Source: Candidatus Cacconaster stercorequi (GTDB lineage Bacteria > Bacillota > Clostridia > Oscillospirales > Oscillospiraceae). Taken from it: a stretch of DNA of 64,000 nucleotides. The position numbers were made by a program, and so were the translations under genes. Positions 16,201-21,060 of the stretch are shown here, in pieces. Every line of letters begins with the position of its first letter. Position 1 is the stretch's first letter. The DNA is taken from contig JAGHUH010000025.1 of the NCBI GenBank assembly GCA_018064925.1, positions 47,847-111,846 of the forward strand, read 5' to 3'. A model generated the notes under the pieces. It ran no database searches. It was not told the DNA's origin and saw only the letters and a list, made by a program, of their open reading frames with translations.

Positions 16201-18651
16201 TTATTCTTTCGTTAAATGCGCACCTGCCGCCTTCAGCATCAGCTTCTTGGTGCCCACTTGGTCAAATGCTACTTCGATCAGCGCATCGCCGCCCATAGGC
16301 CGCACGCTCAGCACCATGCCCTGTCCGAATGCTTTATGGCGCACGCTGTCACCGGGCTGCAGATGCAAAAGCTGTGTCGGTGCAGTGGATGTCCGCACGC
16401 CTCCGGCAGCAGCCAGCGGTTTCTTTTTCTCTGTCGGACGAGTGGACGAATAGCCGGCACGCACCTGACTGCCATAACCGCCGTACGAGGGTGCATTTCC
16501 CCATCCATCGTTCCATTCGGATTCCGGTATTTTCGGTTCTGGCTTGCCCAGCCACTCCATATTTCCCTCCGGAATTTCCTCCAGAAAACGAGATGGCATC
16601 GCCGGTGTGGTACGACCGAACAGCATACGCTGTCGGGCATTGGTCATGGTCAGCTTCTCTTTGGCGCGGGTCATGGCAACATAGCAAAGCCGCCGCTCCT
16701 CCTCCATCTCCTCGTCATCGCCCATGGCACGGTTGCCGGGAAACAAGCCATCCTCCATGCCAACCACATATACCTGCGGAAACTCCAACCCCTTGGCCGC
16801 GTGCATCGTCATCATAGTCACGCAGTTATCACTATCGGATGCATCGTCCAGATCCGTATACAGGGCGATCTCGTCCAGAAATCCGGCCAGTGTGGGGTTA
16901 TCCGGATCGTTTTCCAGAAACGCCAGAATGCTGGAGGTCAGCTCCTGCACATTCTCCAGACGACCACGACTCTCCATGTCGTTCTTTTCCTGCAGCATTG
17001 CCACATAACCGGTGCGCTCGCACACCAGCTCATAAAACGCCACCAGCTCCATTTCGCCGGATTTCGCCCGTAATTCTTCGATCATATCTGTAAAGGTTTT
17101 CAGCTTGCCAGATGCGTTTTTAAGCTCGATATAGCGATTTGCTTCGCGGCAAATATCATACAGCGTCTTTCCGCTGGCTGTTGCCAATTGTTGCGCTTTA
17201 TCCAATGTAGCTGCACCGATCTTCCGCGACGGTACATTGATAATACGCCGCAATCGCAGATTATCCGTAGGGTTATTGATGACACAGAGATATGCCAGCA
17301 TATCCTTCACTTCGGCACGGTCAAAAAACTTCATGCCGCCGATGATCCGATACGGCACACCGTTGCGCTTAAAGGCATATTCCAACGCATTGGATTGGGC
17401 ATTCATGCGATAGAGAATTGCGTGATCCCGCCAATTCGCACCACGACGATAGTTCATCATGATTTGTCCAACCACAAAATTGGCCTCATCACTTTCATTA
17501 AAAGTGGTCTTGACCGTGACCTTCTCGCCACTTCCGTTCTCCGTCCAAAGCGTTTTGCCCTTGCGACCCCGATTGTTGCGGATCACTGTATTGGCCGCGT
17601 CCAAAATGTTTTGCGTAGAGCGATAATTCTGCTCCAAGCGAATGGTTCGCGCCCCGGTATACTGCTTTTCAAAGTTCAAAATGTTTTCTATATTTGCGCC
17701 GCGGAAACGATAAATACTCTGATCATCATCGCCTACCACGCAGATATTTTTGCGGCCGCCGGCCAAGAGGCTTGCCAACAGATATTGCAGATGGTTCGTA
17801 TCCTGATACTCGTCAATCAACACATAGCGAAACTTTCGCTGATAGTATTCCCGGGTCTCCTGACTGCTCTGAAGCAAATCCACTGTATGTAAAATGATAT
17901 CATCGAAGTCCAGCGCATTGGCATCACGCAGTTTTTTATTGTAAAGTGAATAAACTTTACCTATTCTGATTTTACGCCAATCTCCGTTCCTTTCCCAGAG
18001 TGCAGTAAACTCCTCCGGCGACTGCATATCATCCTTTGCCCGGGAAATAACGGAAATGATCTCCCGCACCGGAAATGTCTTCTCCTCCAGACCCAATTCT
18101 TTGAGAATATCCTTAATGACGCGCTTGCTGTCATCGGTATCATAGATGGTAAAGTCTCTGGAAAAACCGATTTTATCAATATCACGCCGCAGAATCCGAA
18201 CGCATGCAGAATGGAATGTGGATGCCCATACATCGCGTGCGGCCTCCGGCCCCAACATCCGCTCCAAACGCTCTTTTAGTTCATTGGCCGCCTTGTTGGT
18301 AAATGTAATCGCCAACACCTCCCACGGGCGTGCCGGCTCTACCGCGCACAGGTATTCTGCCAACGGTTTCTGCTCCGGATCCGGATACTGAACATACTGT
18401 TCCAGAAATTCTACCTCGTCAATAGAAACGGAAACGGGAATTTCGTCCGTGTCGCTGCCGCGTCCATAGCGCAGCAGATTGGCTACGCGGTTGATCAGAA
18501 CCGTTGTCTTGCCGGAGCCGGCACCTGCCAGCAATAGAAGCGGTCCCTCTGTACATAGAACCGCCTCCTGCTGCCGTGCATTCAGATGGCCGTAGTCGGC
18601 AGCAATTACCCGGCGTCTTGCCTGAATAAAGCGTTTTTCCAAATCGTTCAT
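16201..18651 (-). CDS. pcrA: ATP-dependent DNA helicase PcrA/UvrD
   Basis: 816 aa; LLLAGAGSGKTTVLINR, DEYQDTN, VGDDDQSIYRFRGA. Confidence 0.96.
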   Translation of the reverse strand: MNDLEKRFIQARRRVIAADYGHLNARQQEAVLCTEGPLLLLAGAGSGKTTVLINRVANLLRYGRGSDTDEIPVSVSIDEVEFLEQYVQYPDPEQKPLAEYLCAVEPARPWEVLAITFTNKAANELKERLERMLGPEAARDVWASTFHSACVRILRRDIDKIGFSRDFTIYDTDDSKRVIKDILKELGLEEKTFPVREIISVISRAKDDMQSPEEFTALWERNGDWRKIRIGKVYSLYNKKLRDANALDFDDIILHTVDLLQSSQETREYYQRKFRYVLIDEYQDTNHLQYLLASLLAGGRKNICVVGDDDQSIYRFRGANIENILNFEKQYTGARTIRLEQNYRSTQNILDAANTVIRNNRGRKGKTLWTENGSGEKVTVKTTFNESDEANFVVGQIMMNYRRGANWRDHAILYRMNAQSNALEYAFKRNGVPYRIIGGMKFFDRAEVKDMLAYLCVINNPTDNLRLRRIINVPSRKIGAATLDKAQQLATASGKTLYDICREANRYIELKNASGKLKTFTDMIEELRAKSGEMELVAFYELVCERTGYVAMLQEKNDMESRGRLENVQELTSSILAFLENDPDNPTLAGFLDEIALYTDLDDASDSDNCVTMMTMHAAKGLEFPQVYVVGMEDGLFPGNRAMGDDEEMEEERRLCYVAMTRAKEKLTMTNARQRMLFGRTTPAMPSRFLEEIPEGNMEWLGKPEPKIPESEWNDGWGNAPSYGGYGSQVRAGYSSTRPTEKKKPLAAAGGVRTSTAPTQLLHLQPGDSVRHKAFGQGMVLSVRPMGGDALIEVAFDQVGTKKLMLKAAGAHLTKE

Positions 18652-18689: not shown

Positions 18690-18718
18690 ATTTTAATACA
18701 GATTTTTCTTTCGGTCAA
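18690..18718 (-). promoter_or_regulatory. Sigma-A type promoter for pcrA
   Basis: Minus strand TTGACC-N17-TAAAAT. Confidence 0.75.
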
Positions 18719-18758
18719 CCACCTTCAAAAAATAATGGAATTTTTGTTCGATTTTCTA

Positions 18759-18787
18759 TTGACAGAAACAATTGTTCGATTTATAAT
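18759..18787 (+). promoter_or_regulatory. Consensus sigma-A promoter of the microprotein/radical-SAM operon
   Basis: TTGACA (18759-18764)-N17-TATAAT (18782-18787). Confidence 0.9.
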
Positions 18788-18807
18788 GTGCATAGAACAA
18801 AGGTTCC
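18765..18807 (+). promoter_or_regulatory. Two candidate LexA (SOS) operators
   Basis: GAAACAATTGTTCG (18765-18778, inside promoter spacer) and AGAACAAAGGTTCC (18794-18807) each match CGAAC-N4-GTTCG at 8/10 positions. Confidence 0.65.
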
Positions 18808-18823
18808 ACAGGAGGTAACTGAT

Positions 18824-18937
18824 ATGACTACTTTTGGCTTTTGCATGATTCTGCTTGGCGCAAGCGCTGTGTCCGCTAACCTGATGCGTCTGTTTGATCG
18901 GCTGGATCGCCCCCAACCCAAGCGCCGCGCAGCGTAA
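18824..18937 (+). CDS. Putative 37-aa membrane microprotein (not in ORF track)
   Basis: AGGAGG RBS; MTTFGFCMILLGASAVSANLMRLFDRLDRPQPKRRAA; 6 nt before the radical-SAM gene start; hydrophobic N-terminal half, basic C-terminus. Confidence 0.65.
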   Translation: MTTFGFCMILLGASAVSANLMRLFDRLDRPQPKRRAA

Positions 18938-18943
18938 CCCGAT

Positions 18944-20212
18944 ATGGAGTTGCTGGACAAGCTGGCTGTTCTGACCGACGCTGCCAAGTATGATGCAGCC
19001 TGCACCTCCAGTGGCGTACGGCGCGGTTTTCAGCCCGGTAAGATCGGAAACACTACGTCTTCTATTGCCGGATGCTGCCACAGCTTTTCAGCAGATGGGC
19101 GTTGTATTACGCTGTTGAAGGTATTGCTGACCAATTGCTGCGTCTACGATTGCAAGTATTGCGTCAATCGCCGTTCCAACGATACACGGCGTGCAAGCTT
19201 TACGCCAAAGGAACTGGCCGACCTGACAATTGGGTTTTATCGTCGCAACTATATTGAAGGACTTTTTCTGTCCTCCGGTGTGCTGCGCAATCCCGACTAT
19301 ACCACCGAGCAGATGATTTGCTGCCTGCGTATTTTGCGGCAGAAATATGGCTTTAACGGGTATATCCACGCAAAAGCAATTCCCGGTACATCGCCGGAAT
19401 TGGTACAGCAATTGGGCCTGTTGGCGGATCGTCTCAGTGTGAACATTGAACTGCCATCTGAACAGGGATTGCAGACATTGGCACCGGATAAAAACAAACG
19501 GGCAATTTTTGCCCCCATGAGGCAGATTCGAGATCAGACACGGCAGAGCACGGAAGAACTCACCAAATACAAGCATACCCCATCCTTTGCCCCTGCCGGA
19601 CAGAGTACCCAATTGATTGTAGGCGCCACGGCAGACTCTGATTGGCATATACTGCATTTGACAGAATCGCTGTATGACCGCTATCAGCTCAAGCGCGTAT
19701 TTTATTCAGCTTATGTGCCGGTGGTAGAAAATACACTGCTTCCCTCTTTAGATACCAAGCCTCCGCTCCTGCGGGAACACCGGCTCTATCAGGCCGATTG
19801 GCTGCTTCGTTTTTATGGTTTTCGCGCCAATGAACTGCTGGATGAACGGCATCCGGATTTTAACCCGTTACTGGATCCGAAATGCCACTGGGCATTGAAC
19901 CATCCAGAATTTTTCCCTGTAGAAATTATGCGGGCCGACTACGAAACTCTACTGCGTGTCCCCGGAATCGGGCCTATCAGCGCAAGGCGCATTATTTCCG
20001 CCCGCCGTGTTAGTCATTTGCGGCATGAGGATCTGAAAAAACTGGGCGTTGTTCTTAAGCGTGCCCAATATTTTGTTACTTGCTGCGGTAAAATGCGCAG
20101 CGGTCTGCAGTTTTCCGACACCACGCTGGTACAGCAGTTGGAAGCCGTAGAGCGTGGACAACTGCCTTCCGGTGAAATGCAGCAATTGTCCCTTTTTGAT
20201 ACTGTGGGGTGA
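18944..20212 (+). CDS. Putative DNA modification/repair radical SAM protein (TIGR03916-like)
   Basis: 422 aa; NCCVYDCKYCVNRRSND (CxxxCxxC); C-terminal HhH VPGIGPISARRI. Confidence 0.9.
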   Translation: MELLDKLAVLTDAAKYDAACTSSGVRRGFQPGKIGNTTSSIAGCCHSFSADGRCITLLKVLLTNCCVYDCKYCVNRRSNDTRRASFTPKELADLTIGFYRRNYIEGLFLSSGVLRNPDYTTEQMICCLRILRQKYGFNGYIHAKAIPGTSPELVQQLGLLADRLSVNIELPSEQGLQTLAPDKNKRAIFAPMRQIRDQTRQSTEELTKYKHTPSFAPAGQSTQLIVGATADSDWHILHLTESLYDRYQLKRVFYSAYVPVVENTLLPSLDTKPPLLREHRLYQADWLLRFYGFRANELLDERHPDFNPLLDPKCHWALNHPEFFPVEIMRADYETLLRVPGIGPISARRIISARRVSHLRHEDLKKLGVVLKRAQYFVTCCGKMRSGLQFSDTTLVQQLEAVERGQLPSGEMQQLSLFDTVG

Positions 20213-21060
20213 ATTATATGCAGGATGTCATCTTTCAATATGACGGGACATTTGACGGCTTTCTGTGTTGTGTATTTGAAAGCTATGTATATAAAGAATT
20301 CCCCATCGCCTTTTATAGCGATGAGGAATGTTTTTCCCTGTATGAAGTCCGGTCTGTCATTACCTGCAGCAAACACGCGCAGCGCGTTTACCGGAGCTTG
20401 GTCAAAATATCAAGGCGAGCTGCCGGACTTATACGGCGGGCATTTCTGACCTGTATGGACGATAAAGAGCTGCATCTTTATGCCTTTATACGAAAGTTAT
20501 ACGCAGAGGGTCCCGCTTTTATGAAATGTCAGGCCGATGAGGTGTATCTACCGATCTGTCGGGCGGTTCGCCATCTGAATGGCGAGCTGGAAAAGCTGAG
20601 AGGTTTCATTCGGTTTTCAATATATGACGGTGTTCTCGGTGCGGAAATCGAACCCAAAAACCGCGTTTTGCCTCTTTTGCGCAGTCATTTCTGTAATCGT
20701 TATGCCAACGAAGCGTTTTTCATCTATGACCGTACGCACAAGGAACTGCTGCTGTACCACAATGGGCGCTCCCGCATTGTGTCGGTAGATCATCTGCGCC
20801 TGTCGCTTCCCGGCGAGGAAGAACTTTTGTACCGCCGACTGTGGAAGTGTTTTTACGAAACAATTGCCATCAAGGAACGATATAATCCACGATGCCAAAA
20901 TACATTTCTGCCAAATCGCTATCGTGGCACCATGACGGAGTTTCTGCCGACAGATTATGAAGTGCAGCAATCGCTGGTCACCTCTCCTCCAGCATCTCTC
21001 GCAATCGCGCCAACCCCTTTCGCTCAAGCCGAGATACCTGTACCTGAGATACATGAATGA
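20209..21060 (+). CDS. TIGR03915-like putative DNA metabolism/repair protein
   Basis: 283 aa; partner of the upstream radical SAM gene; FQYDGTFDGFLCCVFESY start; GTG 20209 or ATG 20218. Confidence 0.87.
   Translation: MNYMQDVIFQYDGTFDGFLCCVFESYVYKEFPIAFYSDEECFSLYEVRSVITCSKHAQRVYRSLVKISRRAAGLIRRAFLTCMDDKELHLYAFIRKLYAEGPAFMKCQADEVYLPICRAVRHLNGELEKLRGFIRFSIYDGVLGAEIEPKNRVLPLLRSHFCNRYANEAFFIYDRTHKELLLYHNGRSRIVSVDHLRLSLPGEEELLYRRLWKCFYETIAIKERYNPRCQNTFLPNRYRGTMTEFLPTDYEVQQSLVTSPPASLAIAPTPFAQAEIPVPEIHE

Follow-up and report, generated by a model that had tools for sequence, protein, structure and literature searches.

The window analysed here, a stretch of 64,000 nucleotides from Candidatus Cacconaster stercorequi, contains a putative repair operon headed by a very small open reading frame (ORF) and transcribed divergently from a helicase gene. 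Its features are as follows:

16201–18651, minus strand: PcrA/UvrD-type helicase gene, divergent, using the same intergenic region as the operon
18738–18749, no strand assigned: LexA-type box 1, GAATTTTTGTTC, one mismatch to GAACN4GTTC
18759–18787, plus strand: promoter TTGACA-17-TATAAT, perfect (12/12), with the same layout at 34 loci
18766–18777, no strand assigned: LexA-type box 2, AAACAATTGTTC, within the −35/−10 spacer
18795–18806, no strand assigned: LexA-type box 3, GAACAAAGGTTC, exact, between the −10 element and the Shine-Dalgarno sequence
18810–18815, plus strand: Shine-Dalgarno sequence AGGAGG of the microprotein
18824–18937, plus strand: microprotein ORF, MTTFGFCMILLGASAVSANLMRLFDRLDRPQPKRRAA, 37 aa plus TAA, first cistron
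18944–20212, plus strand: TIGR03916 radical SAM gene, 422 aa, starting 6 nt past the microprotein stop
20209–21060, plus strand: TIGR03915/DUF4130 putative DNA repair protein gene, overlapping the radical SAM stop codon; its start is uncertain (GTG 20209 or ATG 20218)

The 422-aa radical SAM protein matches TIGR03916 with 649 bits (cut-off 343.5) and the product of the third gene matches TIGR03915/DUF4130 with 192 bits (cut-off 112). PMC3765255 discusses DUF4130 as an enzyme with a predicted role in mutagenesis and links it to SplB-like radical SAM proteins and to uracil DNA glycosylases; no mention of TIGR03916 by accession was found in the literature searched. For the microprotein, an in-frame GTG at 18788 (49 aa) was rejected as the start codon, as homology begins at the ATG, the AGGAGG suits the ATG, and relatives carry different residues or stops upstream of it.

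The microprotein was present in 27 of 31 genomes of the same genus (E 1e-12 to 3e-5), and its ATG start is common to these relatives. The non-carriers (G013, G015, G023 and G027), some of them incomplete assemblies, coincide with the four genomes in which no TIGR03916 gene was found. In the microprotein frame, pN/pS was 0.48–0.53 (bootstrap 95% 0.43–0.63; 28 sequences), compared with 1.07 and 1.63 in the two other frames, which contain stops in 28/28 and 15/28 sequences. Variability at codon positions 1, 2 and 3 was 0.24, 0.16 and 0.43. Constraint was strongest at the N terminus (pN/pS 0.23), intermediate in the segment LMRLxDRLDxP (0.47) and weakest in the basic tail (0.80), and Gly12 was invariant across all alignments. 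Selection on the protein is therefore moderate overall and weak in the tail. A chance ORF at 18824–18937 is ruled out by same-genus conservation together with coding selection. Overall, these comparisons indicate that the 37-residue ORF is a real, previously unannotated protein gene of some gut bacteria. An earlier note, made from this DNA alone, had proposed just such an unannotated microprotein, had suggested a dN/dS-type check and had named lack of frame conservation among relatives as what would speak against it; the frame is conserved and evolves as a coding frame, so this main claim, a real and overlooked gene, was right, whereas the note's interpretation as a whole is partly supported.

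We next consider the form of the product. Its hydrophobic window spans residues 6–24. Across family members, the best 19-residue Kyte-Doolittle (KD) mean is 1.5–2.3, the octanol energy is −3.9 to −12.9 kcal/mol and the tail carries net positive charge. AlphaFold2 gives a single helix at residues 2–28 (mean pLDDT 82) followed by a loose tail. The microprotein is thus predicted to be a single-pass membrane protein with its N terminus outside and, because of the positive-inside rule, its basic tail in the cytoplasm, in line with the one hydrophobic segment and basic tail described earlier. A conserved charged juxtamembrane segment would also lie on the cytoplasmic side. The microprotein had no match in Pfam, NCBIfam, PHROGs, PADLOC or PDB, and the first gene of this repair operon has accordingly been missed by standard family libraries.

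The promoter carries an SOS-type signature. Using GAACN4GTTC with one mismatch allowed as the box definition, we counted 2.76 LexA-type boxes per promoter in 34 microprotein promoters of 90 nt each, compared with 0.045 in shuffled sequences, and 32 of the 34 had at least two. The usual positions are −86, −58 and −29 from the microprotein start codon, which places the three boxes ∼28–29 bp apart and the middle one within the −35/−10 spacer. In nearly all genomes of the same genus that were read, a GAACN4GTT box is conserved in the lexA promoter. The exact sequence GAACN4GTTCG occurs at only two sites elsewhere in the organism's own genome, a low number because the local boxes are GAACN4GTTC and its one-mismatch forms. 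These patterns point to probable LexA binding at the microprotein promoter and agree with the proposal that the microprotein is the first gene of a putative LexA operon. LexA-type boxes were also found 5′ of TIGR03916 in many species that have no microprotein, among them Paenibacillus, Pelosinus and Pelotomaculum, mostly 23–60 nt upstream. The CAC3343-CAC3344 pair of Clostridium acetobutylicum is likewise a predicted LexA operon (PMC3828012). From these boxes and this pair, LexA control of TIGR03916 appears to be older than the microprotein. Box 1 lies just 5′ of the promoter predicted for the divergent pcrA gene (region 18690–18749), and pcrA might share the SOS control.

To compare translation starts, we took as Shine-Dalgarno energy that of the most stable duplex which the 20 nt preceding the start codon can form with the 16S anti-Shine-Dalgarno sequence. 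Microprotein starts had a mean of −11.9 kcal/mol (27 loci). At radical SAM starts, the mean was −3.3 kcal/mol where the microprotein is present (27 loci) and −11.9 kcal/mol where it is absent (46 loci). The same difference separates sister clades, with −12.8 kcal/mol (weakest −9.3) without the microprotein and −4.3 kcal/mol (strongest −6.7) with it. The contrast between radical SAM starts with and without the microprotein has p = 1.4e-11 when relatedness is ignored, and it corresponds to about two independent evolutionary events. Only one radical SAM start of the microprotein set, at locus L092, had a value below −10; on our reading of the sequence, this arises because a GTGATC stretch pairs with bases beyond the CCUCC core and does not reflect a Shine-Dalgarno sequence. 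The distance from the microprotein stop to the radical SAM start is 1–21 nt, mostly 3–12 nt. Its frame is not constant, and on this ground we reject the idea that the microprotein extends, or is fused to, the N terminus of the radical SAM protein. Promoter, boxes and Shine-Dalgarno sequence lie at similar distances from the first start codon whether or not the microprotein is present, so the microprotein sits between the Shine-Dalgarno sequence and the enzyme gene. RNA around the radical SAM start was not clearly more closed with the microprotein (unpaired probability 0.41) than without it (0.37), and we infer coupling from the missing Shine-Dalgarno sequence and the short gap alone. Together, these data make it very probable that radical SAM synthesis is coupled to that of the microprotein, which took over the translation entry point. 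Termination-reinitiation would be the simplest reading of this arrangement.

ORF-11 of integron attI1 is a known inert leader of this kind: a short ORF with a good Shine-Dalgarno sequence, translationally coupled to a gene without one directly 3′ of it, in which amino-acid changes matter little (PMC8876359). A pure leader cistron, giving translation entry and coupling to the repair gene while its peptide is inert, would explain why the radical SAM gene has no Shine-Dalgarno sequence wherever the ORF is present, and the microprotein, with a good site of its own and a stop close to a start lacking one, resembles ORF-11 in this respect. However, ORF-11 encodes a non-functional peptide of 11 aa (PMC8876359), whereas the microprotein is under selection at the protein level (pN/pS ∼0.5), retains Gly12 and an LMRLIDRLDxP motif, and has homologues in mobile elements away from TIGR03916. 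Its amino-acid sequence evidently matters, which makes an inert leader very unlikely.

We then examined how the gene is distributed. By profile search, 28 of the 401 genomes from the taxonomic family, spread over 5 of 106 genera, carried the microprotein family; of 341 genomes across the class, only the organism's own had it. Carriers include Oscillibacter valericigenes An860 as well as Oscillibacter and Dysosmobacter metagenome-assembled genomes (MAGs). Many of the related loci come from the same assemblies as the numbered same-genus genomes and are not independent samples. On a quick tree of 80 TIGR03916 proteins, presence of the microprotein required two changes, compared with 25.7–25.9 in shuffles. 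A single gain at the root of an Oscillospiraceae clade of 51 rows, followed by a single loss in a subclade of 18 rows, would fit this pattern, and the quick tree also leaves room for two gains. The 18 loci without the microprotein keep the radical SAM gene, which there has its own Shine-Dalgarno sequence.

The earlier note had also suggested that the peptide might tether the repair proteins to the membrane. A role in tethering the radical SAM and DUF4130 proteins to the membrane, or in regulating them, would fit the strict operon linkage, nearly all chromosomal best matches inspected lying directly 5′ of TIGR03916, as well as the predicted cytoplasmic position of the conserved charged juxtamembrane segment. 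Enzyme and peptide nevertheless each occur without the other, the enzyme in the 18-locus clade and the peptide in prophages and mobile elements, and for this reason we regard tethering as weakened and rather improbable.

The relatives away from TIGR03916 were found by profile search with E values of 1e-17 to 5e-4, in the same few genera only; the weakest may be look-alikes. They lie in the following settings:

L238:10994–11104: homologue in an element with terminase, repressor and integrase
L239:9829–9972 and L240 near 9626: adjoining a 90-aa phage protein that matches RecE-associated PHROGs
L241 near 9983: adjoining a phage protein of the same RecE-associated type, by likeness
L270, L275 and L278: early regions 5′ of DnaB-like or single-strand-annealing-like genes, judged by eye
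L279: homologue or look-alike in the early region of a prophage or mobile element
L272: copy 5′ of a large methylase-like gene
L273 and L281: copies near WYL-type regulators, judged by eye

These copies share a hydrophobic stretch with a central Gly, followed by a short amphipathic segment that ends in an acidic residue, usually with Pro and basic residues. L273 and L274 are variants whose tail is acidic (for example, MNAFAMFFAILGVSYVSWLIMKLIIWIDDADEPG...), and a gene resembling WYL-type regulators lies near one of the two. A shortened copy of ∼29 aa is present in two same-genus genomes (L242:198–296 in G003:C24, and L271 in G014:C36), 5′ of two paired genes, one of which resembles an 8-amino-7-oxononanoate synthase type enzyme and the other a short-chain dehydrogenase. 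As copies exist away from TIGR03916, the peptide itself, and not only its ORF, probably has a function, for which these mobile relatives are the best evidence.

Such settings could also mean that the microprotein is a phage-derived accessory protein, acting in superinfection exclusion or in host modification at prophage induction, that the chromosome acquired and has since retained under the control of LexA. This origin is favoured by the location of homologues in prophages and integrase-bearing elements, within regions of early or replication-recombination type. Some of the elements hold terminase, integrase or tail-protein genes, and homologues stand beside a RecE-associated phage protein or upstream of the DnaB-like and annealing-like genes. 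However, every genus in which a mobile copy was found also carries the chromosomal gene, and the chromosomal copy follows the enzyme tree with its two changes. A scan of IMG/VR with the patterns used gave no relative, the peptide was not found at the IMG/VR loci around the neighbouring 91-aa phage protein, and a phage-type query of INPHARED gave matches only at E of at least 3. On balance, we consider capture from a phage unlikely.

Overall, these data suggest a model in which DNA damage would lead to LexA cleavage and transcription of the microprotein, TIGR03916 and TIGR03915/DUF4130 genes as one operon. Ribosomes would enter at the microprotein's AGGAGG, translate the peptide and terminate, then reinitiate 6 nt further on at the gene for the radical SAM repair enzyme, whose start lacks a ribosome-binding site. 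Once inserted in the membrane, with the uncharged N terminus facing outwards and the basic tail facing the cytoplasm, the peptide would act there in its own right; most likely, it would bind a polytopic partner and thereby slow division during repair. Gene reality, SOS control and coupling, taken together and leaving division delay aside, appear likely from the comparative sequence evidence. Division delay, which the earlier note had also raised, is our leading guess by analogy, held tentatively and at less than even probability: none of the computed analyses points the microprotein to the division machinery. It is the most economical shared function because small inhibitors of SOS and phage origin are known and the mobile relatives occupy early-type regions; temperate phages carry small division inhibitors, lambda Kil being an example (PMC3961180). 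More doubtful, although still conceivable, is a wider reading in which one peptide family common to prophages and the Oscillospiraceae SOS repair operon was inserted between the LexA promoter and the radical SAM gene, and halts division or phage growth. If such a shared effector existed, each burst of repair enzyme would obligatorily co-produce a membrane effector in coupled amounts.

SOS-induced membrane microproteins are known singly, mostly through genetics. This one was found by comparative genomics, shows clear gain and loss, is very probably tied by translation to a repair enzyme and connects an SOS gene of the host with prophage genes belonging to one family with it; coupling, gain and loss, and mobile-element relatives all go beyond the earlier note. 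Its single start codon offers a simple genetic separation of the role of the peptide from that of coupling.

Among known SOS proteins, SulA is a soluble, RecA-related inhibitor of FtsZ and a poor analogue, though it had been proposed as one, of a 37-aa hydrophobic helix without a family match. By sequence, the microprotein shares no recognisable family with known division inhibitors. The CAC3343-CAC3344 operon of C. acetobutylicum differs in that it is described as two genes, with no microprotein reported. DinQ and TisB of Escherichia coli are SOS-controlled single-pass microproteins of similar size, and DinQ, a LexA-controlled peptide of 27 aa, depolarises the membrane when overproduced (PMC3567139). 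A membrane-active peptide of this kind, lowering membrane potential and ATP and so slowing the cell during SOS, would suit the size, single hydrophobic helix and SOS-type control seen here. Yet DinQ is under antisense RNA control (PMC3567139) and is not described as the leader of a repair-gene operon, a position in which each induction would yield toxic peptide along with enzyme. The polar, conserved DRLDxP segment rather suggests a protein partner, and we judge a TisB/DinQ-like activity distinctly unlikely.

YneA, SosA and ChiZ are SOS-induced single-pass membrane proteins of Gram-positive bacteria, and the microprotein resembles them, by sequence and prediction, in LexA-type control and a single transmembrane segment. 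In Bacillus subtilis YneA, the transmembrane segment contacts FtsW TM7, but inhibition needs the external LysM domain, and the transmembrane segment alone does not block division (PMC13396833). As the microprotein lacks a LysM domain (it matched neither Pfam nor NCBIfam), a mechanism like that of YneA is not implied. The microprotein is also not beside lexA, as yneA is, and no YneA-like gene was seen in the lexA neighbourhoods of the genus (L192–L208 and L211), so that the genus may lack a division inhibitor of the classical Gram-positive SOS type or encode it at another site. SidA of Caulobacter is a 29-aa SOS-induced inner-membrane division inhibitor that binds FtsW (PMC4211646); it has no known coupling to a repair enzyme. 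By description, SidA and the microprotein are both very small, with a single hydrophobic segment and SOS-type control. The SidA/YneA analogy drawn earlier thus holds, by sequence and prediction, in the SOS-type control and the single-pass form.
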